Origin: a virus | Strand: one strand, 5' to 3' | Virus record (IMG/VR): IMGVR_UViG_3300033388_005071 | Span: 1-49,015 of that record | Length of the DNA: 49,015 bases | In this document: positions 576 through 49,015 of the stretch, piece after piece | Numbering within the stretch: position 1 is the stretch's first letter | How the letters are laid out: each line of letters opens with the position of its first letter | Notes under the pieces: generated by a model | The model's input: the letters and a program-made list of their open reading frames with translations, nothing else | Databases searched by the model: none | Told to the model about the DNA's origin: nothing | Program-made: the position numbers and the translations under genes

Positions 576-1337
576 TTACAGTTCATAATATCTTGTTATG
601 TATGTTTTTAATAATTTTATTTTCCTATCAATCAATCCTGGCGCCGAATTGATTTCAAAAACCCAACTAAGGTTAGTATCTTTTTCTATGCAACAATCTA
701 CTGCGCCAAAATCCAATCCGGAATTGGTGAGCGCTGCCCTCGCTAATAGCTTAAGTTCTCTATCCGTTTCTGATATTGGAAATCTTTTCATTATCCAGCC
801 GAATTTGAAACTTCTAACCATCTTTGGATAATCTACAAATTTATCCTTGTCCTGGTCTTCTTGTGTTTTTATATTAATCTCCATTATCTTATCTTTGAAA
901 ACGAATATCCTGAACTCATTTTCTTTCTCTATTATTTCTTGTAGATAGTATCCTTTCTTTGCGAATTCGATTACCTTATCTATATCTTCCAGAATATAAA
1001 ATCTCCTTCCTTTAAAATGATTTCTGGGACGAGCAATCACAGGCAGGTTTTCTGGTGTTATATTGAAAGAATTAAATAGTCTTGGTGCCCTAATCCCATC
1101 TGATATTAGTTTTTCCCTGGCGTATATTTTATCTGCGTTTTGATTTATCGCCCATGCTTGATTAATTATATGGTTTACTCTACCATATATTGGGGTAAAG
1201 GAATTTCCATACCTAAAGATTAAATCGAATTCACTATTTACACCCTCTGGTTTATTTGTGTAGGAACAATCCAGGGATTCTGCTATTTTCTGTGCAGTAG
1301 GATGTGTTTTTTTGCTTCCAATCACTAGGGTTCTCAT
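576..1337 (-). CDS. ATP-grasp ligase (RimK-like), 253 aa
   Basis: Predicted to use ATP to activate a carboxylate and join it to an amine. Visible ATP-grasp features: an N-terminal segment to about residue 65, nucleotide-binding basic residues in the PVIARPRNHFKGRR stretch (about 99-112), the adenine-loop stretch YYLQEII (131-136), the ENEFRIFVF strand (140-147), and the metal-binding end with DFGAVD (209-214) and FEINSAPGL (227-235; Glu228 and Asn230). Length is normal for a compact ATP-grasp. Its start overlaps the coiled-coil gene stop as ATGA, and it is the last gene of the leftward operon that also encodes a GS-fold amidoligase and a glutaminase. The substrate is unknown. Confidence 0.88.
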   Translation of the reverse strand: MRTLVIGSKKTHPTAQKIAESLDCSYTNKPEGVNSEFDLIFRYGNSFTPIYGRVNHIINQAWAINQNADKIYAREKLISDGIRAPRLFNSFNITPENLPVIARPRNHFKGRRFYILEDIDKVIEFAKKGYYLQEIIEKENEFRIFVFKDKIMEINIKTQEDQDKDKFVDYPKMVRSFKFGWIMKRFPISETDRELKLLARAALTNSGLDFGAVDCCIEKDTNLSWVFEINSAPGLIDRKIKLLKTYITRYYEL

Positions 1338-1690
1338 ATTCTTTCCGTGAGCTCTATGGATTTTATTTTTCCTTTTATTTCTCCCAGTTTGGAGAAATTT
1401 ATAACCATAATATAATCTATAATTGGTGCTGGTAGATACTGTTGTTTTTTTCCTTGATTCATTCTTCCATACGGAAAATGATTTTGGTACGGTTGTTTTT
1501 CTATTGAGGAGACGCCATCAAAATAATCCATACCAGATGAAATGGTTGTGATATCCGTTTCTACTAGCTCCATACTTCTCGTCAGAACTTCGTCAGTTGT
1601 TTCCAGTTCTTTTATTTTGTCCTTAATTTCTCTTAATTGTGGAAAAAGGGATTTCATTTGTTGTTCTAGTTTCTTTATCCTATCGTCCAT
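1334..1690 (-). CDS. Coiled-coil protein between glutaminase and ATP-grasp genes, 118 aa
   Basis: Residues 1-50 form a strong heptad pattern (LEQQMKSL...REIKDKIKEL), followed by a polar segment and a C-terminal IDYIMVINFSKL stretch that could be a beta strand. No known family is evident. It overlaps both neighbours (TAATG with the glutaminase stop, ATGA with the ATP-grasp start), so its product is probably made in step with the two enzymes. It may be a scaffold or the modified substrate; that is inference. Confidence 0.8.
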   Translation of the reverse strand: MDDRIKKLEQQMKSLFPQLREIKDKIKELETTDEVLTRSMELVETDITTISSGMDYFDGVSSIEKQPYQNHFPYGRMNQGKKQQYLPAPIIDYIMVINFSKLGEIKGKIKSIELTERI

Positions 1691-2424
1691 TATTTTTTCC
1701 CCGCTTTAAAGTTTATTTTCTCTAGCAATTTAATCTCCTTTTTCATTGTTGAGATACAATGAATTTCATGTTTTGGGAGACATAGCAAGTTTGGCTGAGA
1801 AGAAAAGATGTCCTTTGGGTTTATCATGAGCGATGTTCCTGTGAATTCTATTTTTGAAATTCCTATAAGTAACTGTTGTTTATGTATATAGGCTACATCT
1901 AGCGGATTTGTGTCTCGATAAATATAGATATTATCGCTAGCGAATGGTTTTAGTATAAGTGCCTTACTTCCATCTGTATCTTTTATTCCCTTATATATAC
2001 CGTTTTTTTCTACATTTGCAAGGATAAATTCCGAGTCCACTTCTCCCTTAAATTTGTATTTTGGTTTCTTTGTTAAAGCGGATACAACCCCATTGTGGGC
2101 GAGGATATAATTACTAGAATAGATTGGCATATTATTGTTATTATCATGCTGGCTTCCTTCTGTTTTATTCCTAGTATGCAGTATTATTAAATTTTCTGTC
2201 CCATTCAATTTTTTAGATTTCAGGCTTTTCTCAGTCACAATCATATCCCATAAATCACTGCTTTTTACCGGAGCTTTTAGGAGTGTCCTTGTGCCATCTT
2301 TTCTTTCATAATATATGCCTGAAGCATCAGTTCCTCTATCCTCCATTTCCTCCCATGTTTTCTTAATAAGGTCAAGGTCAATCTTTTTTTCTCCGTAATT
2401 AATAAAAAATCCTATTCCACACAT
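1690..2424 (-). CDS. Class II glutamine amidotransferase (NTN hydrolase), 244 aa
   Basis: Releases ammonia from glutamine for a partner ligase. The chosen start gives MCGIGFF, placing the catalytic Cys at position 2, to be exposed after Met removal; a reading five codons longer would bury it. The ribosome site GAAGGAG sits 6 nt before this ATG. Other class II landmarks are EDRGTDASG, LHTRNKTEG, ILAHNGVVS and VDSEFI in the usual order. It starts 1 nt after the amidoligase stop. The ammonia is probably used by the neighbouring amidoligase or ATP-grasp enzyme. Confidence 0.92.
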   Translation of the reverse strand: MCGIGFFINYGEKKIDLDLIKKTWEEMEDRGTDASGIYYERKDGTRTLLKAPVKSSDLWDMIVTEKSLKSKKLNGTENLIILHTRNKTEGSQHDNNNNMPIYSSNYILAHNGVVSALTKKPKYKFKGEVDSEFILANVEKNGIYKGIKDTDGSKALILKPFASDNIYIYRDTNPLDVAYIHKQQLLIGISKIEFTGTSLMINPKDIFSSQPNLLCLPKHEIHCISTMKKEIKLLEKINFKAGKK

Positions 2425-2425
2425 A

Positions 2426-4918
2426 TTATTCTCCTTCATTTGTATTGCTTGATATAAAATTATGTACTATTCTACCGGCTGCTGGTGGTCGTATACGGGA
2501 AGAATTGTACTGAGCGAATGCGCTTCCTGATTCAATCGAAATATTTGCGGTTTCTACTGGAGCTTCCCAACGAACTCCCACTTCCTCAGCATTAACTTCA
2601 CGATTAATTGGAAGTATTTGATAATCTTTAAACTGCATATAATTATGTTCGGTTATAAAATTATTAATTTCTTTTTTAACTTTGATAAGTAGCCTCCTCA
2701 CCATGTATTTTGAATATTTTTTATCAAACAACGCATACTTGCTATGTTTTATTTCTATTAGATTTGAATATAGCCCGTAAAGAAAAATGCTTTCTAAATC
2801 AATATTATTAAAATGTACCTCTGCTTCGTTATTTTTTTTCTTGGTATTCGGAATGATGAGTTTTCCTAACAAATATTCAGCATCATAATGGGTTAATAAT
2901 TCTTTAACAGCCAACACATCATTTCCCTTCTTTGCAGATACACAGAATTTAGACAAAAAATATGGATTCTCTGGTCTAACAACTTGACCTCCTACTGGGG
3001 ATTCATATAAATAAAGACACAGCGGAAAGTTTTTCCCGAATTTGGTTTTTTTAGCGTAAAGGGTTGTGCAGTATTCTGAGATTAAATCGGAATATTTCTC
3101 ATTAATCATTTCCTCAAGAGAACCGATATTTTCTATATCAATTATATTTCTATTTCCCGAAATATCTTCTTGAATAAAGAATTTATGTTCTACGCCTTTT
3201 CTGATGTTCCAATTATTAAGCATGTCTTGTAAGAAAATATTTTGTTTAGTACCGTAGAAATAATTTAATAATCTTGCTGTGTCTTTTTTTGATAGAAATT
3301 TATTATAATCTCTTTCACCTGGGGGGTCTTGATATATGAAGGAACCGCCATTCCTATAAAGTTCTATTATTTTTTCAGAAAGAGCAAGACACATTTTAAA
3401 TACCAACTCTGTCAATCCTTTGTCCGCTATAAATGATGGTAAACTCCTGTATTCAACTCCATGGTTTTTAAATCTAAATGAAGATGGGCGTTCATAATTT
3501 GAATAAGATATTTTTTCTTTGAATGATTTCGTCAGCCCACGAAGGAGAGTTATGGCTTCTCTTTGGATATTTCTTGAATGAATATTTATTTTTTCTACTA
3601 AGGTATTGCGATTCATTGTTCTTTCTACGTGTAAAGTTGAGAAATCTCTCCAACATCTAATTGCGCCTGTCATATTTATCTTCATTGGGTAATACAGGAA
3701 ATCATCCAGGAGTTTTCCTAGATATTTCATTGCATTTGTGTTTTGCATTTTCCGCCAGAATTCTCCACCAAAATGGACATGCCCACCGATTGAAACGCTG
3801 AAGCCACCACCTGTCTCAAAGAATACTGCTTCATTTGTTCGTGTTTCGCCAAGTGCTGTCTCTGTATCATTTTTTACTCTTTTTAGTAAGTACTCTATGT
3901 GATTTGTTATTACCATAGGATTTGTTGATGGAGTTGGTCTCAATTCCCCCGTTTCACTGTGTCCATCTAATCCAAGTTTTTTATCAACCAGGGAGGTAAA
4001 GATAGAATTAGCTGAAATTAATGGATAGGAAAGCATCGGAAGTTTCCTGTCTCTTCCGTTTTGTTTTTCACTATTTGCTGGGTATATATTAAATTCTGGG
4101 TCAGCTCCGATAATTGTAGAGAAATCTGAGATATCTTTTAGGAGTGATTTAGTTTTGACTGGTATCCATGTTGAAAATATTGCGTTAATCTCATCAACAA
4201 TTCTTTCTGCCGCTAACCTATCTATTCCTGATAAGACTATTTTTCTGTCAACATCTAAGAAGGCTTCCCTAATTACTGTTCCAGAGCTTCCTTCAACATG
4301 TATTTTTTGCATATTATATAGAAAGAAAAACATATTATTAGTTTGAATACCAATAAGGACTCTCTTTCCTGTATCCTCTCGTGCATTATCCATTAATGGT
4401 ATGTATGGCCCCTCTAATTTAACGTAAATTTTCTTGGTTACGTAACTTTTTATTTCAGTAGCTAAAACCTCAAGTAATGAATGAGCTGTTCTCTGTGTAC
4501 TTCTCTTCGCAAAATAAGTAGTGCACGTTGATTTATCTATTTCCTCTGATAATGTATAGAAATCATAAGATGTGTCCGACAGTGTGGTTCCATATATATA
4601 TCTGGCTAATTCCAGAAAGGTTATTGTTCTTATTATTGTTTTTTTATTTCCTCTTTTCTCAGAATTATTTTCTACAAAAGCCCCAATTCTCTTTACAGAT
4701 GAATCAAAATTTCTGAATCCGGCATTCCTATAGAAATCACCAAATTGCCCAGTAAATATTATTTTATTTTCCTTATCTTCATTAAAGAATTTTATTATGT
4801 CTGGGTTTGGCGATAGGTTTCCATATTCCCCGAATGAATTCACCCTACTTGTTCTCATAACTATCATCGGTGAAACCATTATGCCCTTTTCCCTGTCTAA
4901 AGCTGTCACTTTTTTCAT
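2426..4918 (-). CDS. Glutamine-synthetase-fold amidoligase (phiEco32-like COOH-NH2 ligase), 830 aa
   Basis: Predicted ATP-dependent enzyme that forms amide bonds. The catalytic module lies at about residues 265-500: GADPEF (271-276), LDGHSETGELRP (317-328), the hallmark GGHVHFG (378-384), and GVEYRSLPSF (487-496), which matches the metal- and ATP-binding Glu/His/Arg pattern of GS-like amidoligases. About 260 residues precede it and 330 follow it with no recognised domain. Start overlaps the zinc-ribbon gene by ATGA. Families of this kind are known from phiEco32-like phages next to class II glutaminase and ATP-grasp genes, as here. The target (cell wall peptide, small molecule or protein) cannot be read from the sequence. 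Confidence 0.88.
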   Translation of the reverse strand: MKKVTALDREKGIMVSPMIVMRTSRVNSFGEYGNLSPNPDIIKFFNEDKENKIIFTGQFGDFYRNAGFRNFDSSVKRIGAFVENNSEKRGNKKTIIRTITFLELARYIYGTTLSDTSYDFYTLSEEIDKSTCTTYFAKRSTQRTAHSLLEVLATEIKSYVTKKIYVKLEGPYIPLMDNAREDTGKRVLIGIQTNNMFFFLYNMQKIHVEGSSGTVIREAFLDVDRKIVLSGIDRLAAERIVDEINAIFSTWIPVKTKSLLKDISDFSTIIGADPEFNIYPANSEKQNGRDRKLPMLSYPLISANSIFTSLVDKKLGLDGHSETGELRPTPSTNPMVITNHIEYLLKRVKNDTETALGETRTNEAVFFETGGGFSVSIGGHVHFGGEFWRKMQNTNAMKYLGKLLDDFLYYPMKINMTGAIRCWRDFSTLHVERTMNRNTLVEKINIHSRNIQREAITLLRGLTKSFKEKISYSNYERPSSFRFKNHGVEYRSLPSFIADKGLTELVFKMCLALSEKIIELYRNGGSFIYQDPPGERDYNKFLSKKDTARLLNYFYGTKQNIFLQDMLNNWNIRKGVEHKFFIQEDISGNRNIIDIENIGSLEEMINEKYSDLISEYCTTLYAKKTKFGKNFPLCLYLYESPVGGQVVRPENPYFLSKFCVSAKKGNDVLAVKELLTHYDAEYLLGKLIIPNTKKKNNEAEVHFNNIDLESIFLYGLYSNLIEIKHSKYALFDKKYSKYMVRRLLIKVKKEINNFITEHNYMQFKDYQILPINREVNAEEVGVRWEAPVETANISIESGSAFAQYNSSRIRPPAAGRIVHNFISSNTNEGE

Positions 4919-8207: not shown

Positions 8208-8243
8208 TTATTCGCTATCGCATTGTGAAGCCTCCTTTATCAT
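8208..8243 (-). CDS. Possible leaderless leader peptide, 11 aa
   Basis: ATG lies exactly 9 nt after the -10 box of the promoter at 8253-8281, so it should be at or near the first transcribed bases. It reads MIKEASQCDSE and stops. It contains AAAGGAGG, which precedes a second, two-codon frame (ATG CGA TAG at 8223). It may be a leader peptide or the remnant of a gene start. Confidence 0.3.
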   Translation of the reverse strand: MIKEASQCDSE

Positions 8244-8252
8244 GTTATATAT

Positions 8253-8281
8253 AGTATAGCATGGCAAGCTCACGTTGTCAA
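8253..8281 (-). promoter_or_regulatory. Sigma70-type promoter for leftward amidoligase operon
   Basis: On the minus strand TTGACA (8276-8281), 17-nt spacer, TATACT (8253-8258), with an A/T-rich TTAAAATAA stretch just upstream of the -35. A near-consensus promoter shared in form with six others in the genome. Confidence 0.88.
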
Positions 8282-9803: not shown

Positions 9804-9851
9804 TCAAATAACGGCGACATAATCTAACTGACTATATCTACTAACTAACAT
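9804..9851 (-). CDS. Possible leaderless leader peptide, 15 aa
   Basis: ATG lies 6 nt after the -10 box of the promoter at 9858-9886. Reads MLVSRYSQLDYVAVI then stops. No ribosome site is possible this close to the transcript start. Listed because all seven promoters of this family show an ATG at 6-9 nt. Confidence 0.25.
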   Translation of the reverse strand: MLVSRYSQLDYVAVI

Positions 9852-9857
9852 ACTATA

Positions 9858-9886
9858 AGTATATAATAGATAGATATCAATGTCAA
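9858..9886 (-). promoter_or_regulatory. Sigma70-type promoter for operon 8644-9721
   Basis: Minus strand TTGACA (9881-9886), 17-nt spacer, TATACT (9858-9863), preceded by an A-rich stretch. Confidence 0.85.
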
Positions 9887-10220: not shown

Positions 10221-10250
10221 TTGACAAATAGGGTGTCTTTATGGTATAGT
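10221..10250 (+). promoter_or_regulatory. Sigma70-type promoter for tRNA and rightward late operon
   Basis: TTGACA (10221-10226), 18-nt spacer ending in ATGG, TATAGT (10245-10250). The predicted transcript start is near 10257, just before the tRNA and the genes from 10362 on. No other strong promoter is seen before the terminase and head genes. Confidence 0.85.
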
Positions 10251-10259: not shown

Positions 10260-10273
10260 ATGAAAGCTCAAAT
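10260..10273 (+). repeat. 14-bp direct repeat, copy 1 (before tRNA)
   Basis: ATGAAAGCTCAAAT, repeated exactly at 10362-10375 where it begins the next gene. The two copies are 102 nt apart (34 codons, same frame) and flank the tRNA. The ATG is 9 nt after the -10 box. Confidence 0.85.
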
Positions 10274-10275
10274 AT

Positions 10276-10348
10276 GCCACTGTAGCTTAATTGGCAGAAG
10301 CCCTGTTTTGTACTCAGGAGATTGCGGGTTCGAGTCCTGCCAGTGGCT
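10276..10348 (+). tRNA. tRNA-Thr (probable anticodon UGU)
   Basis: Cloverleaf: acceptor GCCACTG/CAGTGGC, T8-A9, D stem GCTT/AAGC with GG in the loop, anticodon stem CCTG/CAGG, T stem GCGGG/CCTGC with loop TTCGAGT, discriminator T, no encoded CCA. The anticodon loop TTTGTAC gives UGU (Thr). Base 26 is missing and the 31-39 pair is T-T, so the anticodon call is less sure than the tRNA itself. It is the first element transcribed from the promoter at 10221-10250. Confidence 0.85.
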
Positions 10349-10361
10349 TCGGAGAAAATAA

Positions 10362-10375
10362 ATGAAAGCTCAAAT
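10362..10375 (+). repeat. 14-bp direct repeat, copy 2 (gene start)
   Basis: Exact copy of 10260-10273, forming the first codons of the DnaJ-type zinc protein gene. Confidence 0.85.
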
Positions 10376-10571
10376 TTGTCCTGTTTGTAACGGTAGCGGT
10401 AAATATGAAGGTAAGGAATGCCATGGTTGTGATGGTAAGGGATGGGTTAGTGTAAGTGGAGATTACCCGCCTTATTACCCTCGTCCTTATATTTATCCTC
10501 CTTGTGACCCATACCTAGATAGATGGATTACAACAACTGATACGATTATGGAGGAATATACAAGTGTTTAA
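10362..10571 (+). CDS. DnaJ-type zinc-finger miniprotein, 69 aa
   Basis: Begins MKAQICPVCNGSG and has CHGCDGKGW, i.e. two CxxCxGxG-type motifs as in the cysteine-rich domain of DnaJ, followed by a Tyr/Pro-rich tail. A GGAG lies before the ATG, inside the 14 nt between tRNA and gene. The first 14 nt duplicate 10260-10273, where the same codons lie 9 nt from the -10 box; the original gene was probably leaderless before the tRNA came in. Confidence 0.8.
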   Translation: MKAQICPVCNGSGKYEGKECHGCDGKGWVSVSGDYPPYYPRPYIYPPCDPYLDRWITTTDTIMEEYTSV

Positions 10572-39958: not shown

Positions 39959-41305
39959 TTATTTTTCATTTTTTGCTTTCCCATAACGCTTAATTTTGTG
40001 TGTTATTTCATAGAACTCCTTCTTATTTATATATCTTTGTATCTCATGTACTCTAAGGGTTCTCTTATCAAACCTTAGAAATATATCATTCATATACGGT
40101 AGTCTCCTGGCTCCAAGGGTCTGGAGACACACTATACCCTCCACTATAAATCTCTCATCGGGAGTAAGAAAGCTATTAAGTTCAGGTCTGTACGCTCCCA
40201 GTACAAAATCAGCATCTTCCTCTATAGTACCACTACCACGCCCAGACCTGAGAGAGAGTGGGACATCACCATTCCTCCCTGTCTCTCTCCCAACCTGAGC
40301 CAACACAAGAAGCGAGACCCCCAATTCCTTTGCCATGTCCTTAAGGAACTTAGTTGCCTCTCTGAGGAACTCATATTCTCCGGCTATATGGGTACGGATT
40401 CTAGTAAGAAAGTCTATAATAACTAACCTTATATTACTCTTGGATTGTAGTTGTATTATCTCACTATAGATGTCCCTCAAGGACAAAGCAGCTTTTGTTA
40501 TGTAGAAGATGTTTTTATGTCTATCAATTATCTCCTTATTTTCCTCCTCTGTTATGCTCTCGACATGTTTTCCGCTTTCTATCCTCAATAGCCTCTCCCC
40601 TAGTTGAGGTGAATTCATTTCTAACGAAAAGAAAATAGCCCCATCGCTAGGGTAGTGGGAAGAGAAATGCCTGAGAACATTTTGAGTCATTATAGATTTT
40701 ATTACCTTGGCACGTGCTAATAGATAGCATATCTCACCAGGAGCTATACCATTAGAGGCGTCATCCAGGGAGGGTATCCCTAGCTTTACACCGCCTCCGC
40801 TATGTCTGTAGTCATTGAAATCATTAACCAGGGTATCCGCAGTAAGGGCATGTCCACCTATACCTCCACCAACACTACGCTCCTTTATCTTGTTGGCTAT
40901 ATCGAGTATCCCCTGAGAATCCTTTTTCTGTATAGCTGATTGCATTCCGAGGGAAAGAACATCTAAATCTCTCACTCTCTTGTACTCCGATAGTGTATCA
41001 ATTAGCCCCTGGAAAGATTCCTTCTTTACCTTTGGCACCCCATCTAATAATGATGTTACATATAGTGGGTCAACTAACTCTTTTGTCCCCAACTTGTCAG
41101 TCAGGATAACTAAATCAATTTCCTTTCCGTCTTTAAATAGTTCTTCCATTGCAGTGAGGATTACCCTGGACGTCTCCCAATAAAAATCTCCCTTTTCTAC
41201 AAATGGGATAAAAGAGTTATCCATAATGCACATGCCAAGGACGGTCTTCTCTATTGATGTACTATAGAAAATCCCCTCGCCCTTGTCTTCCAACTTTTCT
41301 ATCAT
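39959..41305 (-). CDS. Replicative DnaB-like helicase, 448 aa
   Basis: Hexameric DNA helicase of the RecA fold. N-terminal DnaB domain about residues 15-115; RecA-like domain from about 165 with ARAKVIKS (197-204) as Walker A, FFSLEM motif (225-230), Walker B LVIIDF, arginine-finger and sensor region VLAQVGRETG, and ADFVLGAYRPE. Walker A has Ile instead of the last Gly (normally GKT/S). A host or other partner must supply primase. Overlaps the next gene start. Confidence 0.88.
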   Translation of the reverse strand: MIEKLEDKGEGIFYSTSIEKTVLGMCIMDNSFIPFVEKGDFYWETSRVILTAMEELFKDGKEIDLVILTDKLGTKELVDPLYVTSLLDGVPKVKKESFQGLIDTLSEYKRVRDLDVLSLGMQSAIQKKDSQGILDIANKIKERSVGGGIGGHALTADTLVNDFNDYRHSGGGVKLGIPSLDDASNGIAPGEICYLLARAKVIKSIMTQNVLRHFSSHYPSDGAIFFSLEMNSPQLGERLLRIESGKHVESITEEENKEIIDRHKNIFYITKAALSLRDIYSEIIQLQSKSNIRLVIIDFLTRIRTHIAGEYEFLREATKFLKDMAKELGVSLLVLAQVGRETGRNGDVPLSLRSGRGSGTIEEDADFVLGAYRPELNSFLTPDERFIVEGIVCLQTLGARRLPYMNDIFLRFDKRTLRVHEIQRYINKKEFYEITHKIKRYGKAKNEK

Positions 41306-42060
41306 TTCGTGAACCTATCAAAAACTATTCTCCAAAAATACTTCATAATGTTATTCTTATTCTCGTGCCAAAATTCCAACGGGTTGGAATGAAACTCGCC
41401 ATGACATTTCAAGCACAAAGGTATGGCATGGTTCTTAACACTCTCCCCACCAGCCCCTCTTGTCCTAGGAAAGTGGTGAGGGTCAGACTTCTTAGCATTA
41501 CACACACAACACCTCTGCTTTCTTACCCACTCCAGGTACTCATCAGGAACAATGGGAGGCGGGGTGGTTTCCCACACCTCAGACCTCCCTGGTATTTCTA
41601 AGGGTTCCTTTCCTTGTTTAAGTCTGACTTCATCCCTCAGGTCTTTCCTGCTGAGGTGTTTTGCCTTATGTAACCAGTCTGTTACGTCTTCTGGGTTGCT
41701 ATTGACTACCGAATGGATAACATTTAGCTCACCTATACCTATGTCGCTGATTATCTCTGGTTTTATCCCCAACTGCATAATATATAACTCATAAATTCCC
41801 ATGTATAAATATACTGTTGCTCTGCTATACCTAAGTTCCGGCATACCATAGAATTCAGCAAAGGTATCGCAATCAAAAAACCCATACAGCTCTTCGTCTT
41901 TTATCTTTTTAAATAGCTCACCAGTTCTTAGCATATTAAATGCAATATCCTTCTTCCTATGGACGAGCTCCTGGAAAATACCAAAGGCTATGTTTCCTTT
42001 CCGTTCCTCATCCGTAGCCTCTCGAGTTTCTAAAGCGGTCATTTTTAATACTTTACTCAC
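41302..42060 (-). CDS. HNH-type protein with helical N-terminal domain, 252 aa
   Basis: Residues about 1-160 are helical, unknown. Residues about 180-235 carry a zinc HNH-like module: CCVC, DPHHFPRTRGAGGES, then NHAIPLCLKCHGEFH, as in the Ref/DUF968 type of phage nucleases. GTG start, overlap with the next gene. Contains one copy of the TTCCAAC palindrome (41374-41389). Probable recombination or DNA-ending nuclease. Confidence 0.75.
   Translation of the reverse strand: MSKVLKMTALETREATDEERKGNIAFGIFQELVHRKKDIAFNMLRTGELFKKIKDEELYGFFDCDTFAEFYGMPELRYSRATVYLYMGIYELYIMQLGIKPEIISDIGIGELNVIHSVVNSNPEDVTDWLHKAKHLSRKDLRDEVRLKQGKEPLEIPGRSEVWETTPPPIVPDEYLEWVRKQRCCVCNAKKSDPHHFPRTRGAGGESVKNHAIPLCLKCHGEFHSNPLEFWHENKNNIMKYFWRIVFDRFTK
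41374..41389. repeat. TTCCAAC/GTTGGAA palindrome, copy 2
   Basis: TTCCAAC-GG-GTTGGAA inside the HNH-type gene. Being coding here, it may be chance, but the arms match the copies in control regions exactly. Confidence 0.55.
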
Positions 42061-42263
42061 AACTTCACCCCATATGTAAACTCTAATGCTTTAATTAAAT
42101 CTTTATCATTAGCCCAATATAAACTATGGGGAAAAGCGTTGCCTATAAGTTGACCAAACGTAAGGTCTGGATTTAGATTCCAAAGTTTTCTTATCTTTTC
42201 TAAGAACTCTTCCTCTGTTATCTTTTTTTCAGCGTGTGTTATCACTTTTCTATGCTTTTTCAT
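42057..42263 (-). CDS. Hypothetical protein, 68 aa
   Basis: Starts MKKHRKVITHAEKKITEEE; AGGAGG at 6 nt decides this start over an ATG five codons upstream. Contains NLNPDLTFGQLIGNAF and KDLIKALE, similar to small phage proteins of unknown function found near replication genes. Overlaps the upstream and downstream genes by a few bases. Confidence 0.65.
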   Translation of the reverse strand: MKKHRKVITHAEKKITEEEFLEKIRKLWNLNPDLTFGQLIGNAFPHSLYWANDKDLIKALEFTYGVKL

Positions 42264-42594
42264 TCCCTTCCTCCTCACTTTCCTTTAATATTGCCTCTAT
42301 TATTTCTTGCCTATCCTTCTCTGGATATATATTGTTACCCTCAACGGCATCTAACAGTATCTGTCTCTTCTCTTCCTCTGTTCCAACATATGACCTTACG
42401 GTGGAGCGATAGGCTTCCTTCATAGTGACCCCCTTGTTATTCATTAGCCATTCAACTTCACGGGCAAGCCATAAGGGGCAGACCAGGTTACAACCAAAGG
42501 CTTTCTTGCAACCAAAGTCTCTGTCCATTCTCTTGCAGAATTTATCCATCTCCCTTGGCTTGAGTAGGATATCTGATTTTCTTTTGTAACTCAT
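42250..42594 (-). CDS. Cysteine-containing hypothetical protein, 114 aa
   Basis: Four cysteines in the middle (FCKRMDRDFGCKKAFGCNLVC) could bind a metal; the C-terminus is acidic and helical (EEEKRQILLDAVEGN). Not recognised. Weak ribosome site; overlaps the upstream stop. Confidence 0.65.
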   Translation of the reverse strand: MSYKRKSDILLKPREMDKFCKRMDRDFGCKKAFGCNLVCPLWLAREVEWLMNNKGVTMKEAYRSTVRSYVGTEEEKRQILLDAVEGNNIYPEKDRQEIIEAILKESEEEGNEKA

Positions 42595-42785
42595 TTCATT
42601 ATTTGCGCTTCTGGTTCTGGTGTATTTTCCTTTAACCCTTCTATTTCCTCTTCTGCGTTTGCTAACATTTCTTCTAGATTACTTATTCTTTCTCGCAAAG
42701 TATCAAAACAATCGAAACAGAAAACTGTACTTCCTTCCGTTATTGTAGCGCCACAGTTGTCACAATTAATATCTAAATCAATCAT
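42591..42785 (-). CDS. Zinc-ribbon/coiled-coil protein, 64 aa (paralogue set)
   Basis: CDNCG and CFDC pairs, then a coil (RERISNLEEMLANAEEEIEGLK). Paralogue of the adjacent gene and of 38854-39060. AAGGAG site; ATGA overlap with the upstream stop. Function unknown. Confidence 0.7.
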   Translation of the reverse strand: MIDLDINCDNCGATITEGSTVFCFDCFDTLRERISNLEEMLANAEEEIEGLKENTPEPEAQIMK

Positions 42786-42991
42786 TTCTTCTCCTTTAAT
42801 ATTTCTATTTCCTCTAGCAAATCTCCCACCTGAATATCTAGGTTGTCAATCTCACCCTCTAACCTAGAAACATTTTTTTTTAACTCCTCTGCATTTTTGA
42901 GTGCTTCATTATAACATACTCTACAATAAATATCTTCCACGCCCTCTATAGTTCTATCACATTTATCACAAAAACTTTCTATTTCAATCAT
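42782..42991 (-). CDS. Zinc-ribbon/coiled-coil protein, 69 aa (paralogue set)
   Basis: CDKCD and CRVC pairs, then an acidic coil (NVSRLEGEIDNLDIQVGDLLEEIEI). Tandem paralogue of the next gene; third member at 38854-39060. Overlaps neighbours by ATGA. Function unknown. Confidence 0.7.
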   Translation of the reverse strand: MIEIESFCDKCDRTIEGVEDIYCRVCYNEALKNAEELKKNVSRLEGEIDNLDIQVGDLLEEIEILKEKK

Positions 42992-43815
42992 TTTATCTCC
43001 TTAAATTGAGGGCAGAGATAATTTACCGGACAATAGTCCCTACACCTCAAGTGAACCTTATAATTCTGGCTCCTTGGGTTCTCATTATACCATGTATCTT
43101 CCGGCACTCTGCAAGGTGTTATTTTTGATGGGTCTTTCTGGTTTTCTCCATGCTCAATAACTAGTCCCTCTGCCATATTCTTGACACTTTCTATGTTCAT
43201 AATTGGCACATCGATAGTCTCAACTGGATTTACCCCATCTCTATGTTGGGTAGCAGTAGACCAATCCTTTATGATGGCTTCTATCTTAAGGCTCGTGGCT
43301 TCTGGGAATTTATATGCCCTATACATATTCAACTGGTCTTTGTATGTTGAGTCGCTGAAGTCCCCTGCCTTTAATTTCTTTACAGGGTAGACCTTCATTG
43401 TTTTGTAATCCCATAGGGTTTTTGTAATTGCATCATAGTAGTCAAGTTTACCAGTAAGGGTGTACTCACCTATCTTAACAGAGAATCCCTCCTCTATCCT
43501 ATTCATTTCACCTAAGCCCATCTTATCTAACACCCACTTAGCATTCTCCGGTATTTTATGCCACGCTGTCCCCATTGTCATCCAGATAAGGCTATCGAAT
43601 GTAGCATAATAGTCATTGTTTCTCTTAAGGTACACCACCTGGGGTGGATTCAGTATTTCTGTGACAGAGTACACCTTATCCACCACTGGTCTGGTACTAT
43701 TGAGCGCAATTAACAACGGTAATGGGTGGCACTTTTCTGAACAGTGATTTATACAGTAGCTAAAATCAACATGCTCTCCGTTATGCGGACAAATTAATCC
43801 CTTCAGCCCAGCCAT
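42988..43815 (-). CDS. Cas4/RecB-type PD-(D/E)XK nuclease, 275 aa
   Basis: Core nuclease motifs: His86 in MGTAWH, Asp125 in GKLDYYDA, Asp136 and Lys138 in LWDYKT, and Gln161-x3-Tyr165 in DQLNMY. Cysteines at the N-terminus (Cys9, Cys21, Cys25, Cys29) and the C-terminus (Cys258, Cys262, Cys268) suggest an iron-sulphur cluster, as in Cas4 and AddB. Likely DNA end processing in replication or recombination. No CRISPR array is present. Confidence 0.8.
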   Translation of the reverse strand: MAGLKGLICPHNGEHVDFSYCINHCSEKCHPLPLLIALNSTRPVVDKVYSVTEILNPPQVVYLKRNNDYYATFDSLIWMTMGTAWHKIPENAKWVLDKMGLGEMNRIEEGFSVKIGEYTLTGKLDYYDAITKTLWDYKTMKVYPVKKLKAGDFSDSTYKDQLNMYRAYKFPEATSLKIEAIIKDWSTATQHRDGVNPVETIDVPIMNIESVKNMAEGLVIEHGENQKDPSKITPCRVPEDTWYNENPRSQNYKVHLRCRDYCPVNYLCPQFKEIK

Positions 43816-43816
43816 T

Positions 43817-44365
43817 TCATACTCCTCTTTCTATGTACGCAGAAAAATCATTAGCTATGTCTTTTACAATATCAATCTGGTCTTGAATACCCTGACTATC
43901 ACCTAAGTGACCGAACACATACCAACTACAAGCAGTCTTTAATGCAGACATCCTCTGTTTCTGTCCTGTATTCCCCCATGAGTCAGGAAAATCCTTTTTC
44001 GTATTCCTTCCTCCAGCCCGAGGAGACCCCTCTATAGCTTTTTTGGGTGGACGTGGTAACTCAGATAAAGTCACTTCTGGGTCACTTCCGGTTAAAGTTG
44101 GTTCCTCACCTTCTGGAAATGGCTCATTTACGTCTATAATCTTTTCTGACGACTCTATGTTCATATAGCCGTTATTCTCTTCTGCGGTGAAAAGAAATGT
44201 TTCTCCGACATTAAGATTTTCCACCTTAGAGGCTCCCCACCCGTATAACGTATATGGGTCTTTTCCCTCTCCACCTTTAGGAGTGACTAATATCTTATAA
44301 TAAGACTTTCCACCCCTAGAGATTGCTTCTGTAATACCTAAGATTTTTGCTTCAAATTTTAACAT
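43817..44365 (-). CDS. OB-fold-like single-strand DNA-binding candidate, 182 aa
   Basis: N-terminal 95 residues have an OB-like strand pattern (FEAKILGITEAISRGGKSYYKILV, LYGWGASKVENLNVGETFLFTAEE); a Pro/Gly-rich linker and a C-terminal helical part follow. Start here has GGAGGTG at 8 nt; an ATG 15 codons upstream (44410), with AAGGA before it, is also possible and keeps genes tightly packed. Next to the nuclease gene. SSB function is an inference. Confidence 0.6.
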   Translation of the reverse strand: MLKFEAKILGITEAISRGGKSYYKILVTPKGGEGKDPYTLYGWGASKVENLNVGETFLFTAEENNGYMNIESSEKIIDVNEPFPEGEEPTLTGSDPEVTLSELPRPPKKAIEGSPRAGGRNTKKDFPDSWGNTGQKQRMSALKTACSWYVFGHLGDSQGIQDQIDIVKDIANDFSAYIERGV

Positions 44366-44412
44366 ACCAAACACCTCCGATGTTTTATAGATTGCTTCTC
44401 CAAGCTCCATAA

Positions 44413-44550
44413 CTATTCCTTAAATGAGCGAATAGCCTCTTTTATTCCTATAATTATAAGCCACAATAGAGCCCCGCACATCCCTATCGCAACAATGGTT
44501 AAAGCGAGGGTTGCGAAAAATAAAGCAATACTTGATAAGAAATCTATCAT
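44413..44550 (-). CDS. Small membrane protein, 45 aa
   Basis: Hydrophobic from about residue 4 to 36 (ALFFATLALTIVAIGMCGALLWLIIIG), ending in a basic tail. Start overlaps the HNH gene stop as ATGA; TTTAGGAGAG before it. One or two membrane helices; function unknown. Confidence 0.6.
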   Translation of the reverse strand: MIDFLSSIALFFATLALTIVAIGMCGALLWLIIIGIKEAIRSFKE

Positions 44551-44846
44551 TTCTCTCTCCTAAACCGTTTCTGGACTCCATCTTCTGAGCCCTTATTGGG
44601 TTTATTTTTTACACCCTTAACCTGTTCGGCATGGGTCTTCCCCTTCTTAGTGAGGGAATTGTGAGCCTCCCTGGTCATTAACCTCAGATTACCTATAGAG
44701 TTATCTGTGGGGTTATCGTTCTTGTGAGCTATTACATACCCATCTGGAATTTTCTTACCCCAATGTTCCTCCCAAGCCTTCCGAGCCTGGTAGGCATCTG
44801 TACTTTTACTTCCGCCCTCTCTGGGGCGACCAACTTTTTTACTCAT
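44547..44846 (-). CDS. HNH endonuclease, 99 aa
   Basis: HNH_3-type core: WEEHWGKKIPDGYVIAHKNDNPTDNSIGNLRLMTREAH, with the His-Asn pattern of the family, about residues 25-62. Basic C-terminus. May be a free-standing homing-type nuclease. AAGGAGG site; follows a 150-nt structured leader from the promoter at 45003. Confidence 0.85.
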   Translation of the reverse strand: MSKKVGRPREGGSKSTDAYQARKAWEEHWGKKIPDGYVIAHKNDNPTDNSIGNLRLMTREAHNSLTKKGKTHAEQVKGVKNKPNKGSEDGVQKRFRREK

Positions 44847-44874
44847 CTAAGCCTCCTTATTCTTTATTGCTTAT

Positions 44875-44939
44875 GGCTAGGGTGGGCGGGTTTCGCCTCC
44901 TGATTAAAGAGGGTCACGCCCACCCGTTATATCCTAGCC
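44875..44939 (-). promoter_or_regulatory. Large GC-rich hairpin in leader of the HNH gene
   Basis: GGGTGGGCG (44880-44888) pairs with CGCCCACCC (44917-44925), with an outer GGCTAGG/CCTAGCC pairing and an inner CCTC/GAGG hairpin. It lies in the leader about 30 nt upstream of the HNH start, in an otherwise AT-rich region. It may control translation or be an unknown regulatory RNA. No terminator-like U run follows. Confidence 0.6.
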
Positions 44940-44969
44940 TTATGTTAAGACGCAAAGAGAAATCCACTC

Positions 44970-44993
44970 TCACGCCTCACACTCATTATTCAT
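44970..44993 (-). CDS. Possible leaderless leader peptide, 7 aa
   Basis: ATG 9 nt after the -10 box of the promoter at 45003-45031; reads MNNECEA and stops. Listed only because the same ATG spacing recurs at every promoter of the family. Confidence 0.25.
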   Translation of the reverse strand: MNNECEA

Positions 44994-45002
44994 TCTTTAC
45001 CC

Positions 45003-45031
45003 ATCATACCACACCTGCCTCTAAATGTCAA
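45003..45031 (-). promoter_or_regulatory. Sigma70-type promoter for leftward replication operon
   Basis: Minus strand TTGACA (45026-45031), 17-nt spacer ending GTGG, TATGAT (45003-45008), with TTTAAAATAATCC just upstream. Almost the same upstream sequence as the promoter at 45254-45282. It lies within about 9 bp of the end of the small gene 45040-45234. Confidence 0.88.
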
Positions 45032-45039
45032 GGATTATT

Positions 45040-45234
45040 TTAAAATAGTTTAACAAAATCGTTTTCTAGCATATCGGATTCCGTTACTTCTTTTTCTACT
45101 CCAGCCCTTGCTTCCTTGTCACTTAGGGATAAGTAAGTTAGGAAAGCATAGAGAGAGTCGTCACCATCGTGGATGAACATATACTCATCTCTTAGTTTCC
45201 AAAGGTCATCTAAAACGTCTTTAGTTACTTTCAT
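45040..45234 (-). CDS. Small acidic protein, 64 aa
   Basis: Starts MKVTKDVLDDLWKLRDEYMF; mostly helical, acidic. GGAGGTAACA before the ATG decides the start; an in-frame ATG at 45246 (MEVTMKV) sits 7 nt after the -10 box and could start a leaderless form. A longer frame begins inside the promoter itself. Function unknown; first product of the leftward replication side. Confidence 0.6.
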   Translation of the reverse strand: MKVTKDVLDDLWKLRDEYMFIHDGDDSLYAFLTYLSLSDKEARAGVEKEVTESDMLENDFVKLF

Positions 45235-45253
45235 TGTTACCTCCATGATAAGC

Positions 45254-45282
45254 ATCATACCATACATAGTTCTGCTTGTCAA
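45254..45282 (-). promoter_or_regulatory. Sigma70-type promoter for gene 45040-45234
   Basis: Minus strand TTGACA (45277-45282), 17-nt spacer ending ATGG, TATGAT (45254-45259). Upstream sequence TTTAAAATAATCC matches the promoter at 45003. Confidence 0.88.
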
Positions 45283-45486
45283 GGATTATTTTAAATAAAT
45301 CATTTTCCAACAACTTCCAACAAGTCTTTCCAACAGTGTTGGAATGTTTTCTCCTGGGGTGACCCCACACGCACATGCGCTACACACGCTAAAGGTTTAA
45401 AGTTCTTAGTATATTAAACCAAAGAAACTAAGAAAGAGACTTATATAATATATATATATTAATTATAAAGAACTTAAAGAAAAGAC
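45283..45486. other. Divergent control region / candidate replication origin
   Basis: About 200 bp between divergent promoters, no gene. It holds three TTCCAAC repeats (45305, 45315, 45328), the palindrome TTCCAACAGTGTTGGAA (45328-45344), GGGGT-G-ACCCC (45356-45366), an inverted repeat GGTTTAA/TTAAACC (45394-45400 with 45414-45420), and a very AT-rich run (about 45441-45470). Iteron-like repeats plus an AT-rich stretch next to a helicase operon suggest an origin; this is inference. Confidence 0.5.
45305..45344. repeat. TTCCAAC direct repeats and palindrome, copy 3
   Basis: TTCCAAC at 45305-45311, 45315-45321 and 45328-45334; the third pairs with GTTGGAA (45338-45344). Starts are 10 and 13 bp apart, about one helical turn. 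Likely a protein-binding array. Confidence 0.65.
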
Positions 45487-45515
45487 TTGACAGTAAGAGC
45501 TACTTGTGGTATAGT
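45487..45515 (+). promoter_or_regulatory. Sigma70-type promoter for rightward early operon
   Basis: TTGACA (45487-45492), 17-nt spacer ending TGTGG, TATAGT (45510-45515). The gene starts only 9 nt later. Confidence 0.88.
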
Positions 45516-45524
45516 GTATATACT

Positions 45525-46064
45525 ATGAAATACTTTATTGCTGATACTCACTTCAACCACGAGGGTCTTATGAAAGATACACGTTCTTTTAAGAACGTAT
45601 GGGAAATGAACACTTATATGATTGATATGTGGAACAAAACCGTTAAGAGAGGAGACCAGGTTTTTCACCTAGGGGACTTCGGATATAAAGTTAGGGGTGG
45701 CGGGACGCCCCTTGATAAAATCATTAAGTCTCTTAACGGGTGTATCACCCTCATTAGGGGCAACCATGATAAGTACGTGAAGAAGCATGAGCATCTCTTT
45801 CACTGTGTCAAAGACCTACATACTGTCAAGCTCCATAATGGGGTCAAGTGTATGCTATGTCACTACCCTATGCGTACCTGGAACGCCTCTCACTGGGGCT
45901 CATACCACCTACATGGACATGCTCATGGAGGGGTTATACCAGGTGGTAAGATGTGGGACGTAGGTGTTGATGTCAATGGCTTCAGACCTATTAGTGAGTT
46001 TGAGGTTATGGCTATTATGAGGGACTTACCAGATAACGAAAATTTAATTAAAAATAAAACTTGA
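45525..46064 (+). CDS. Metallophosphoesterase, leaderless, 179 aa
   Basis: Calcineurin-like phosphoesterase with MKYFIADTHFNH (Asp7, His9), HLGDFGY, IRGNHDKY, CHYPMRTW and HLHGHAHGG: all five metal motifs in order. Substrate (nucleotide or RNA) unknown. The start ATG is 9 nt after the -10 box, so the mRNA has at most a few nt of leader and no ribosome site; a start seven codons upstream would lie in the promoter. First gene of the rightward early operon. Confidence 0.88.
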   Translation: MKYFIADTHFNHEGLMKDTRSFKNVWEMNTYMIDMWNKTVKRGDQVFHLGDFGYKVRGGGTPLDKIIKSLNGCITLIRGNHDKYVKKHEHLFHCVKDLHTVKLHNGVKCMLCHYPMRTWNASHWGSYHLHGHAHGGVIPGGKMWDVGVDVNGFRPISEFEVMAIMRDLPDNENLIKNKT

Positions 46065-46089
46065 CAAAGAGAGCCGTTTGTGGTATGAT
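46061..46089 (+). promoter_or_regulatory. Sigma70-type promoter for gene 46116 onward
   Basis: TTGACA (46061-46066), 17-nt spacer ending TGTGG, TATGAT (46084-46089). The stop codon of the metallophosphoesterase gene (46062-46064) lies inside the -35 box. Confidence 0.85.
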
Positions 46090-46096
46090 AGGTAAA

Positions 46097-46123
46097 ATGA
46101 AACAAGGAGGCATCAATGGCTAA
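46097..46123 (+). CDS. Possible leaderless leader peptide, 8 aa
   Basis: ATG 7 nt after the -10 box; reads MKQGGING then TAA, overlapping the start of the gene at 46116. It contains that gene's AGGAGG site, so its translation could affect initiation of the gene. Confidence 0.3.
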   Translation: MKQGGING

Positions 46124-46547
46124 AATGAAAAACAAGGACATTGAGGAACATAATCTAGTGATGTTAGCAGAGGAGTATCCCTCGCTAGACGCTAAGATTG
46201 TGAAGGAGATATTAACGGACAAAAAATGGAAGGTTTCTTCCTATGTTATACTTGACTCTTTAATGAGGTCAATAGCTATGGAGATACCTCTACCGAAAGA
46301 GCTTGCTTCACTTTTCTTTACATTATCTGTTGGGGGCTACGTAGCCTATATCCTAATGGATTCAGCAGGGAAAGAAGGTGAAGCCCCTGTAAAGGAACTA
46401 CTCGAGTTTATGACTAAGAGATGGGAAGATATATTCAAGTTGGGTAAACGTATACAGGAAGATAATATGAAGGTTAAGAAATCCAACGTGTTGGACATAG
46501 TTGATGAGCTTGATAGCCCGAGTGGGAAGAAAGAAGTAACCCATTAA
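46116..46547 (+). CDS. Hypothetical protein, 143 aa
   Basis: Helical throughout, with a hydrophobic segment (ASLFFTLSVGGYVAYILM) in the middle and a charged C-terminus. AAGGAGG site before the ATG. Not recognised. A TTCCAAC-type palindrome lies near its 3' end and another just after it. Confidence 0.65.
   Translation: MAKMKNKDIEEHNLVMLAEEYPSLDAKIVKEILTDKKWKVSSYVILDSLMRSIAMEIPLPKELASLFFTLSVGGYVAYILMDSAGKEGEAPVKELLEFMTKRWEDIFKLGKRIQEDNMKVKKSNVLDIVDELDSPSGKKEVTH
46482..46495. repeat. TTCCAAC-type palindrome, copy 4
   Basis: TCCAAC-GT-GTTGGA, 6-bp arms, within the gene at 46116-46547. About 60 bp before copy 5. Confidence 0.5.
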
Positions 46548-46548
46548 A

Positions 46549-46565
46549 TTCCAACATTGTTGGAA
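46549..46565. repeat. TTCCAAC/GTTGGAA palindrome, copy 5, at ribosome site
   Basis: TTCCAAC-ATT-GTTGGAA followed directly by AGGAGG and the ATG at 46577. Can form an RNA hairpin beside the ribosome site or bind a protein. Confidence 0.65.
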
Positions 46566-46576
46566 AGGAGGTAATA

Positions 46577-46897
46577 ATGAAGATAGTTATTAATGGTGGT
46601 TATGGTGGTTTTGGTATCTCATGGGATACATTCTTTTATTTAGCAGAACGCAACCATCCATTTGTTGAGGATATGTTTGAAAAATGGGCTGAACCAGGGG
46701 TTGAAGAGTTTTATATAGACGACCCCGAAAGAGATGACCCGATGCTTATTTTTGCTATAGAGGAGCTTGGAAGTGATATTGCCTCTGACGATTATGCAGA
46801 ATTGAAGGTTGTTTCTATCCCAGATGGAGTTGATTGGGTAATAGAAGAATATGATGGGTGGGAGACTATCGCTGAGAAGCATAGGACATGGGGGTAA
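46577..46897 (+). CDS. Conserved phage protein, 106 aa
   Basis: MKIVINGGYGGFGIS at the start, DDPMLIFAIEELG in the middle and VDWVIEEYDGWETIAEKHRTW at the end: a pattern seen in many phage hypothetical proteins of unknown function. Strong AAAGGAGG site next to the palindrome at 46549. Confidence 0.75.
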   Translation: MKIVINGGYGGFGISWDTFFYLAERNHPFVEDMFEKWAEPGVEEFYIDDPERDDPMLIFAIEELGSDIASDDYAELKVVSIPDGVDWVIEEYDGWETIAEKHRTWG

Positions 46898-46901
46898 TAA
46901 A

Positions 46902-47264
46902 ATGAACCTAAAAGAATTTTTAAAGGATGAGAGACCCCACTACCGTAGGTTATTTATAGAATTATGTAAGCGAGTGGGGGCAAAACTTGAGAATGTGGAG
47001 CTAATAAAAGAAGATGACAAGTGGGCTTTCCCTCATGGGGCATATACCTGGACTATAGAAGAAGAAGATAGTTATAAAGATTGGCTTGTGGAGTATATTT
47101 ACAAGTATCGGAGGAAATTTAAGATAGGGTACGCTTCTAAGAAATGGATACGAGACAGAGAGGCTTCTATGTTTATCCTACAGTATTCCTGGGAATATAA
47201 GGATACCCCTGCTAGTAGAGAGTTTTTTGATGCGATTAAAAAGGATTTTAGGGGGCTCGAGTGA
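46902..47264 (+). CDS. Hypothetical protein, 120 aa
   Basis: Starts MNLKEFLKDERPHYRRLF (GGGGG site); rich in Lys, Tyr and Trp. No family recognised. Its last bases overlap the GTG start of the next gene. Confidence 0.65.
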   Translation: MNLKEFLKDERPHYRRLFIELCKRVGAKLENVELIKEDDKWAFPHGAYTWTIEEEDSYKDWLVEYIYKYRRKFKIGYASKKWIRDREASMFILQYSWEYKDTPASREFFDAIKKDFRGLE

Positions 47265-48523
47265 GTAAAACAGATAGGTTAGCAAACTTACTTAACGAAT
47301 CTGGGTGGCTAACTAAGCGTTGGGCGAGGGGGGAGGATACTAACCATTTACGGAAAGATTGCAACCAGGATATAGCAGAACTTATCTTTCCAATAAAAGA
47401 GGAACCAGGGGATTGGAAACCTTATTTTCCAGGCAGGAAAGAGATACTTGATATGCGTGTTTTCGATGAGTATCGTATTAACTATATGAGTCTTATTGGT
47501 TGGATGTATAGGAATATAGATGAGTACCCCAATATGGTTAGGCAACAAGCGTATGAGTTAGCCAGAAGAACACGTATCTCTGGAGCTAAGTATTTACGTA
47601 CATTTCTTATCAATGGTTCAAGAGCTAAAAGCGAGAAATATATTATGGATGCTTTACCCTGGGAAATTATAAAGGGAAAAATAGATTTTAGTATCCCAAA
47701 TAAGACCTGGTGGAATGTTGCTGAAATACTAGAGAGAGCTTGTAAATACTGGGGAATCCACCATATGCCCACCTATCGCTTGGCAAGATATAACCGAGAT
47801 ATTTTCAGGGCTAAATGGAATAGGTCTGAAATAGAGGGTGAATGGAGCGATGGTTCAATTATAGAAACGATAGATTTAATGCGGGATTTTATGTATATGC
47901 AGAAATATGTGCGTGGAGCCTCATATAAGTCATCATTTGAATTTATCAATGAGCCGGATTGCAGAAATAATAAAGATAAATTGGGGATGATAGCCGATTA
48001 TCATTTAAAGCTATGGGAAGGGGTCGAGGATTTAACTGATATTAGCAAGGCTATGACCTGTTCTGGTTCTTGTGAGGGGGCGCATGCTAATTTGATAGAG
48101 AGAAGCCATAGTTTTGGTAGAGATTTTGGTGACGATAAGTTTAAAACAAGGAGAGTTACTCCAGAGCATCACGGCATAAGCACAAAGAAGAGCCTCGTTG
48201 ACTCTGGGTTTGAGACCCCTAATGGGTTGGGGAATGGATGGAATAAACTGGCGTACAATGAAGATGGTTCAAGAGATGGCGGCTATTCTCCTATACCGTG
48301 GACATCATTCAGGCAAGCTGATAGCGAGGAGCTGTATGAAATGCTAGAGTATGGCTATACAAGGTGTGCGCATAAGAAAAAGAAGTTTATCTTCACAGCA
48401 TTCTGTATGGATGTACTGCGGAAAGATACAGATGGTATCGCTAAAGAGGAATTTGATAAGCAACAGATGGATTCTATGAATTGGGATAGACTCGGGCAGT
48501 ATCGTGAGATGAGAGAGGGGTAA
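47261..48523 (+). CDS. Glycoside-hydrolase-like protein (TIM-barrel type), 420 aa
   Basis: The stretch SSFEFINEPDCRN (Glu231) looks like the NEP motif of clan GH-A enzymes; preceding and following segments alternate helix and strand as in a barrel. A second catalytic Glu is not obvious. It lies in an early operon, not beside the fibre, so it may act inside the cell or on a polysaccharide; the fold call is moderate. GTG start, GGGGG site, GTGA overlap. Confidence 0.45.
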   Translation: MSKTDRLANLLNESGWLTKRWARGEDTNHLRKDCNQDIAELIFPIKEEPGDWKPYFPGRKEILDMRVFDEYRINYMSLIGWMYRNIDEYPNMVRQQAYELARRTRISGAKYLRTFLINGSRAKSEKYIMDALPWEIIKGKIDFSIPNKTWWNVAEILERACKYWGIHHMPTYRLARYNRDIFRAKWNRSEIEGEWSDGSIIETIDLMRDFMYMQKYVRGASYKSSFEFINEPDCRNNKDKLGMIADYHLKLWEGVEDLTDISKAMTCSGSCEGAHANLIERSHSFGRDFGDDKFKTRRVTPEHHGISTKKSLVDSGFETPNGLGNGWNKLAYNEDGSRDGGYSPIPWTSFRQADSEELYEMLEYGYTRCAHKKKKFIFTAFCMDVLRKDTDGIAKEEFDKQQMDSMNWDRLGQYREMREG

Positions 48524-48527
48524 TGAG

Positions 48528-48755
48528 ATGACAATACCATTGTGGTGTAAAATACTTATATTAATTCTTACCTTAGCGGTTGCTTACGCAGGATGGAATT
48601 ATATTAGAATATTCTACGGGAAAAAATATTACAAAAGAATGATGTATCACCTTACGATAGTTAATTTATCTGAAAAAGAAGGACATGCCGGTGTGAAAAA
48701 GTTTATGGATGAAAATCCAGAACTTGTTAAAAGGTATGCCAGTGGGGGAGAATAA
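48528..48755 (+). CDS. Membrane-anchored protein, 75 aa
   Basis: One N-terminal transmembrane helix (about residues 6-24, WCKILILILTLAVAYAGW), then a basic patch and a polar tail. GAGGGG site. Coupled to the next gene by TAATG. Function unknown. Confidence 0.65.
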   Translation: MTIPLWCKILILILTLAVAYAGWNYIRIFYGKKYYKRMMYHLTIVNLSEKEGHAGVKKFMDENPELVKRYASGGE

Positions 48756-48958
48756 TGAATGAAGAAAGATATCAAAAATATCAAACCTGTAGCTATTGCC
48801 ACAGAAGATTAAATACTAATAAATATGGAATGATTAGATTCCAAGGAGGGGGTGACTCGGGCAGGGAAACAGATGATATAAATACAAGGTATATTTGTGT
48901 AGATTGCGTGATTGCAGCGATGGATAGTTCGGCTGTTTTGAAAAATCGGGGAAAATAA
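48755..48958 (+). CDS. Zinc-ribbon protein, 67 aa
   Basis: CSYCHRR and CVDC pairs about 35 residues apart, with a Gly/Asp-rich middle (FQGGGDSGRETDD). Its last 19 codons, counting the stop, are repeated at 1-57. Coupled at both ends. Function unknown. Confidence 0.7.
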   Translation: MNEERYQKYQTCSYCHRRLNTNKYGMIRFQGGGDSGRETDDINTRYICVDCVIAAMDSSAVLKNRGK

Positions 48959-49015
48959 TGAAACAAAGAATAGTGACTAAAGATGAGTTGTGGTTGGAAT
49001 ATAAGAAAGCTATAG
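48902..49015. repeat. Terminal direct repeat, right copy
   Basis: Identical to 1-114. See the left copy. Confidence 0.9.
48958..49015 (+). CDS. 5' end of 76-aa hypothetical protein (complete at 57-287)
   Basis: First 19 codons of the gene, cut by the end of the window; the same bases as 57-114. Confidence 0.85.
   Translation, partial: MKQRIVTKDELWLEYKKAI

Follow-up and report, generated by a model that had tools for sequence, protein, structure and literature searches.

The window analysed here is the whole of a 49,015-base virus record with 40% G+C. It belongs to a tailed phage, with genes for a terminase, portal, capsid and DnaB-type helicase, and it carries one tRNA-Thr gene. Isolated phages are only distantly related to it (the capsid is ~24% identical to that of Arthrobacter phage Jasmine). 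A megablast search of positions 40,000-49,015 against the phage collection returned no match, single-protein scans with the terminase and the helicase recovered no relatives, and a single-protein scan with the phosphoesterase led to one distant locus only. No relative of the phage was found among the bacterial and archaeal genomes searched (genome_contigs). A family of uncultured relatives was gathered by alignment-based scans with the capsid and the terminase. The nearest of these, G001 (L185-L187, 47,122 bases), has a capsid that is 77% identical and genes in common with the window across much of the genome. At one end of the window (576-4918, minus strand) lie neighbouring genes for a glutamine amidotransferase-like protein and a COOH-NH2 ligase-like protein (Pfam PF13522 and PF14395); the product of 576-1337 is without a Pfam match and by eye resembles an ATP-grasp protein.

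Both strands were scanned for promoters, defined as TTGACA with at most one mismatch together with TATAAT-like hexamers, and ATG codons were ignored. A perfect TTGACA followed by a spacer of 16-18 nt and TATNNT occurs at exactly seven sites in the window (Table 1), and six of the seven have an extended -10 (TGn). An earlier sequence-only reading had listed promoters with -10 positions 8253, 9858, 10245, 45003, 45254, 45510 and 46084, each with an ATG close behind. The ATG-blind scan returned the same seven promoters and the same gaps between the -10 box and the ATG (9, 6, 9, 9, 7, 9 and 7 nt, respectively). The minus-strand -10 boxes span 8258-8253, 9863-9858, 45008-45003 and 45259-45254, the positions in the list being the low end of each hexamer. 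Transcription usually starts (+1) ~7 nt downstream of the -10 box, and from this spacing we infer that the seven RNAs would begin 0-3 nt ahead of an AUG. An A/T element (about TTATTTAAAATAA) lies immediately 5' of TTGACA at the promoters 8258, 9863, 45008, 45259 and 46084, and at 8258 it forms the near-palindrome GTTATTTAAAATAAC. This element is either an UP element or an operator.

Table 1. Promoters of the window and the reading frames whose ATG follows the -10 box.
Feature	Position	Strand	Remarks
Promoter TTGACA-N17-TATACT	8253..8281	-	from scan
Promoter TTGACA-N17-TATACT	9858..9886	-	sole one of the seven without TGn
Promoter TTGACA-N18-TATAGT	10221..10250	+	reads into tRNA-Thr, then towards terminase/structural genes
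Promoter TTGACA-N17-TATGAT	45003..45031	-	from scan
Promoter TTGACA-N17-TATGAT	45254..45282	-	from scan
Promoter TTGACA-N17-TATAGT, extended -10 (TGG)	45487..45515	+	ahead of metallophosphoesterase gene
Promoter TTGACA-N17-TATGAT	46061..46089	+	from scan; a diverged version of promoters 45510 and 45008
Putative leaderless phosphoesterase gene, 179 aa, phrog_547	45525..46064	+	ATG 9 nt past -10, without Shine-Dalgarno
Predicted 5'-terminal ATG (gap 9), 11-codon frame	8208..8243	-	holds Shine-Dalgarno of the next start, overlaps 2-codon frame (ATGCGATAG)
Predicted 5'-terminal ATG (gap 6), 15-codon frame	9804..9851	-	
Predicted 5'-terminal ATG (gap 9), 33-codon frame	10260..10361	+	runs through tRNA-Thr gene; stop abuts ATG 10362
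Predicted 5'-terminal ATG (gap 9), 7-codon frame	44970..44993	-	
ATG 45246, 7 nt past -10	45040..45246	-	in frame with SD-led start 45234 four codons on (ATGGAGGTAACAATG)
Predicted 5'-terminal uORF, 8 codons	46097..46123	+	holds SD of gene 46116 and overlaps its start (ATGGCTAA)

The phosphoesterase gene is the only annotated gene in the window whose start lies behind a full promoter at such a distance. The sequence upstream of its ATG is the promoter itself and the Shine-Dalgarno (SD) energy is only -2.9 kcal/mol, in line with the earlier description of 45525 as the start of a real gene without a ribosome site. The alignment of its product to PDB 1xm7 begins at query residue 1, the alignment to a relative's protein (41% identity) begins at residue 3, and the phosphoesterase family motifs begin at residue 6. 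Because the homologues and PDB 1xm7 align from the N-terminus, the start appears to be the correct one, and it is nearly certain that this phrog_547 gene truly begins at ATG 45525. With the usual spacing, +1 is predicted at 45522-45525, so that the predicted leader is 0-3 nt long and the mRNA would begin with ACTATG or ATG. Initiation of the phosphoesterase is very probably leaderless, a reading that the sequence supports well. Most gene starts in the window (51/63) have a Shine-Dalgarno of -5 kcal/mol or better, which indicates that the phage is not a leaderless-type genome. The homologue in G001 (L185 17625) occupies the second place of an operon and is SD-led, preceded by TTAGGAGATAGGC. The leaderless start is thus not kept in this relative, and it is not an old family feature. 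At the promoter of the G001 operon an ATG lies at gap 6 and opens a frame of 13 codons, whose stop and the next start share the sequence ATGA (L185 17335, plus strand).

The six other ATGs open frames of different kinds. The ATG at 45246 was said to be in frame with its gene, and this was borne out (gene start 45234); it is also one of the three ATGs that stand ahead of Shine-Dalgarno sites, as had been noticed, together with 8243 and 46097. The frames from 9851 and 44993 stop far from any annotated gene start. The first 17 nt of the 10260 frame recur at 10362-10378 (ATGAAAGCTCAAATNTG, 16/17 identical), so that the two copies flank the tRNA-Thr gene, each beginning at an ATG. It looks as if insertion of the tRNA split a leaderless gene from its promoter and duplicated its first codons. 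A search of the window against Rfam found the tRNA only. Most of the folded 5' leaders are weakly structured, and the idea that translational coupling is required by structures occluding the Shine-Dalgarno was rejected on this ground. The minus-strand leader of gene 44846 (44836-44985) has a folding energy of -48.6 kcal/mol versus -36.9 kcal/mol in shuffles (z -3.0); between the promoter and the HNH gene lies a long hairpin rich in G+C (GGGTGGGCG/CGCCCACCC).

We estimated how often an ATG would fall at gap 6-9 by chance. Per site, the chance is 0.063 in the non-coding part of the window, 0.072 in the whole window and 0.078 after TATNNT. Among the matches listed for extended -10 promoters of unrelated viral contigs, 49/419 (0.117, or 12%) have an ATG at this distance. 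Dinucleotide shuffles of the seven leaders gave an expectation of 1.16 out of seven (up to 0.17 per promoter), and none of 5000 shuffles reached seven. The highest count in the 16 unrelated contigs with at least four such promoters was two out of six, among the matches listed. The promoters 45008, 45259, 45510 and 46084 are copies of one promoter that have since diverged (43 nt at 81% identity, 39 nt at 77%, 52 nt at 77% and 46 nt at 76%), meaning that the seven sites are not fully independent. Seven independent sites at 0.117 would give p ~3e-7; counting the copies once leaves about four units, for which 0.117^4 is ~2e-4. A chance ATG at all seven promoters therefore remains very unlikely, as had been claimed. 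The sequence repeated at promoters 45008 and 45259 stops at the -10 box, so the ATG of that pair was not simply copied along. The seven out of seven is a real excess for this phage, although caution is required as the pattern was picked after looking.

The proposal that the spacing reflects a general rule was held to fail if relatives did not conserve it, and they do not: two of the six promoters in G001 have it. Across the relatives, an ATG falls at gap 6-9 in 12 of 45 distinct promoters with an extended -10. When these promoters are treated as 26 independent groups, the count is 6/26 with 3.2 expected from shuffles (p = 0.09). Counting GTG as well as ATG gives 10 versus 4.3 expected (p = 0.0025), under a criterion that was chosen afterwards. 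A family-wide spacing rule was rejected on the ATG counts. In independent promoters of the relatives the ATG positions are bimodal, at gaps of 4-10 or 19-24 with none at 11-18, and an SD-led start ~19-24 nt past the -10 box is the commoner layout. Conserved uORF peptides were also rejected, since at one promoter common to three close relatives (G006, G007 and G008) the ATG persists but its peptide differs (6, 11 and 3 aa). Candidate leaderless genes with a gap of 6 are found in two relatives. One (L185 7378, minus strand) encodes a CxxC protein of 81 aa, and its promoter lies upstream of the terminase genes; the other (L188 203, minus strand) is a lipoprotein-like frame that runs off its contig.

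A wider comparison drew on the matches listed for unrelated viral contigs, 415 promoters with an extended -10; some of these contigs are related to each other, so the size of any peak is approximate. Among these listed promoters, the ATGs of frames 40 aa or longer are concentrated at gaps 6 and 7 (14 and 11 cases; mean 12.5), versus 1.8-2.7 per position elsewhere. This is five to seven times the level at neighbouring spacings, among the matches listed, and corresponds to +1/+2. Long frames at these gaps are found, for example, in contigs L280, L345, L304, L306, L349, L291, L356, L068 and L072, and several leaderless frames with an identical N-terminus occur in two or three contigs; MKYLIVDTANT, for example, is shared by L280 and L345. 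The peak indicates that phages regularly contain a minority of leaderless genes. ATGs opening short frames show no comparable peak in the same listed set (7.0 versus 4.0-6.0), which indicates that there is no general selection for AUG-headed leaders lacking a gene. Gap 9, found at four of the seven promoters of the window, is not a preferred leaderless spacing elsewhere, among the matches listed. To our knowledge, leaderless phage genes are usually illustrated by lambda cI alone. Our literature search found no report directly on leaderless phage promoters by 5'-end sequencing. From the long-frame peak it seems that the strong sigma-70-type promoters of environmental phages include a definite minority at which a gene starts exactly at +1. 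Programs that look for a Shine-Dalgarno when calling genes could overlook these genes or assign them a wrong start.

The arrangement in the window resembles several known systems. Lambda cI and the transposon gene tetR served as leaderless controls in a study of E. coli (PMC4965119). The phosphoesterase start is like these in lying 0-5 nt from the predicted 5' end, without a Shine-Dalgarno and behind a full promoter, but its leader, with the 5' end placed by prediction, is 0-3 nt long and not certainly 0. AUGs at the 5' terminus (5'-uAUG/5'-uORF) were reported for 287 of 3456 E. coli transcripts (8%) (Beck, Fleming and Janssen 2016, PMC4965119), with mRNA protection and/or coupling to the SD-led gene reported for mRNAs such as ptrB and rcnR. 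The six other leaders of the window are similar by predicted spacing, which would put the AUG at most 3 nt from the 5' end, and would share the order of a short frame followed by an SD-led gene, at times with a stop/start overlap. Whereas such mRNAs are 8% of E. coli transcripts, all seven strong promoters of the window would produce them. In Deinococcus-Thermus, a -10 motif adjoins open reading frames, including nearly a third of the genes of D. radiodurans (PMC12340547). The likeness here lies in a start codon ~6-7 nt past the -10 box that would give a leaderless mRNA. The share of genes is unlike that of Deinococcus, however, as only 1/63 starts in the window is so placed, with a full -35 there, and 51/63 are SD-led.

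We consider it probable that the locus combines ordinary promoters, one leaderless gene and six AUG-headed leaders, with an excess of ATGs that is specific to this phage and stems partly from promoter duplication. The promoters would be ordinary host-type sigma-70/A promoters, mostly with an extended -10. The AUG at 45525 would be a real start, and the leaderless mRNA would be entered at its 5' end by a 70S ribosome, like that of lambda cI. The other six AUGs would head leaders, one as an in-frame N-terminal extension and five as short frames, and the annotated genes behind these leaders would be served mainly by their own Shine-Dalgarno sequences. Most of the 5' AUGs probably arose as a side effect of promoter duplication and of the A/T richness of start regions, where a purine is preferred at +1; some of the six may bind ribosomes. 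The pattern is an unusual excess of a known arrangement, not a new rule or a family rule. Of the earlier suggestion of leaderless initiation or an initiator-linked start rule, the leaderless phosphoesterase stands as judged from its sequence, and a phage-wide rule does not, given the counts in relatives. A preference for ATG specific to this phage is conceivable, as seven out of seven is improbable even with four units and gap 9, at four of the seven, is not the usual leaderless spacing among the listed viral promoters.

A selected strategy, in which every strong transcript carries a 5'-terminal AUG that loads 70S ribosomes and thereby protects the mRNA and/or couples translation to the SD-led gene, is possible but rather unlikely. 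The contrast of seven out of seven with a background of 0.06-0.12 would fit it, but the family lacks conservation at 6/26 independent groups and the 415 listed viral promoters have no general short-frame excess at +1. Frames that stop at or overlap the next start (46097 and 10260 in the window, and the ATGA at L185 17335) would also suit coupling, whereas the frames from 9851 and 44993 end far from annotated starts, and the weak folding of most leaders means that coupling is not needed to open the Shine-Dalgarno. The retention of the ATG at the G006/G007/G008 promoter while the peptide changes, and the E. coli precedent of 5'-uAUG mRNAs (PMC4965119), speak for selection. We are more doubtful that selection has placed an AUG atop every strong transcript for 70S capture at 5' ends during infection, as one design for leaderless and SD-led genes alike. 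If true, such capture would shield the mRNA, allow coupled reinitiation, or let translation start under conditions that impair 30S initiation. With its seven 5' AUGs, the phage offers a small natural panel for studying whether AUG-headed leaders have any function.

Pure coincidence, in which A/T-rich start regions and promoter copies produced one striking pattern that was then picked from many, is improbable. It would accord with the upper shuffle background of 0.17 per promoter, with four of the promoters being copies and with relatives near background, but no shuffle matched the window and the 16 unrelated contigs reached two out of six at most, among the matches listed. For 45525 this explanation is excluded, as the gene itself begins with that ATG. 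It is very improbable that the phosphoesterase is not leaderless and has its start instead at an in-frame TTG (45504) or on a longer transcript begun upstream: that TTG lies within the promoter spacer ahead of the predicted +1, the alignments to homologues and PDB 1xm7 begin at residues 1-3 of the product of 45525, and no other perfect promoter lies directly upstream on the same strand.

Several promoters of the relatives (L239 15051, L242 15408 and L245 492, minus strand, and L220 1266, plus strand) have a conserved leader with RTGGGAGAAGAG (or GAAGAAGAG), which also contains an AGTGGC...GCCACT stem. The transcript from the 10245 promoter of the window has instead a tRNA with the acceptor stem GCCACTG/CAGTGGC.
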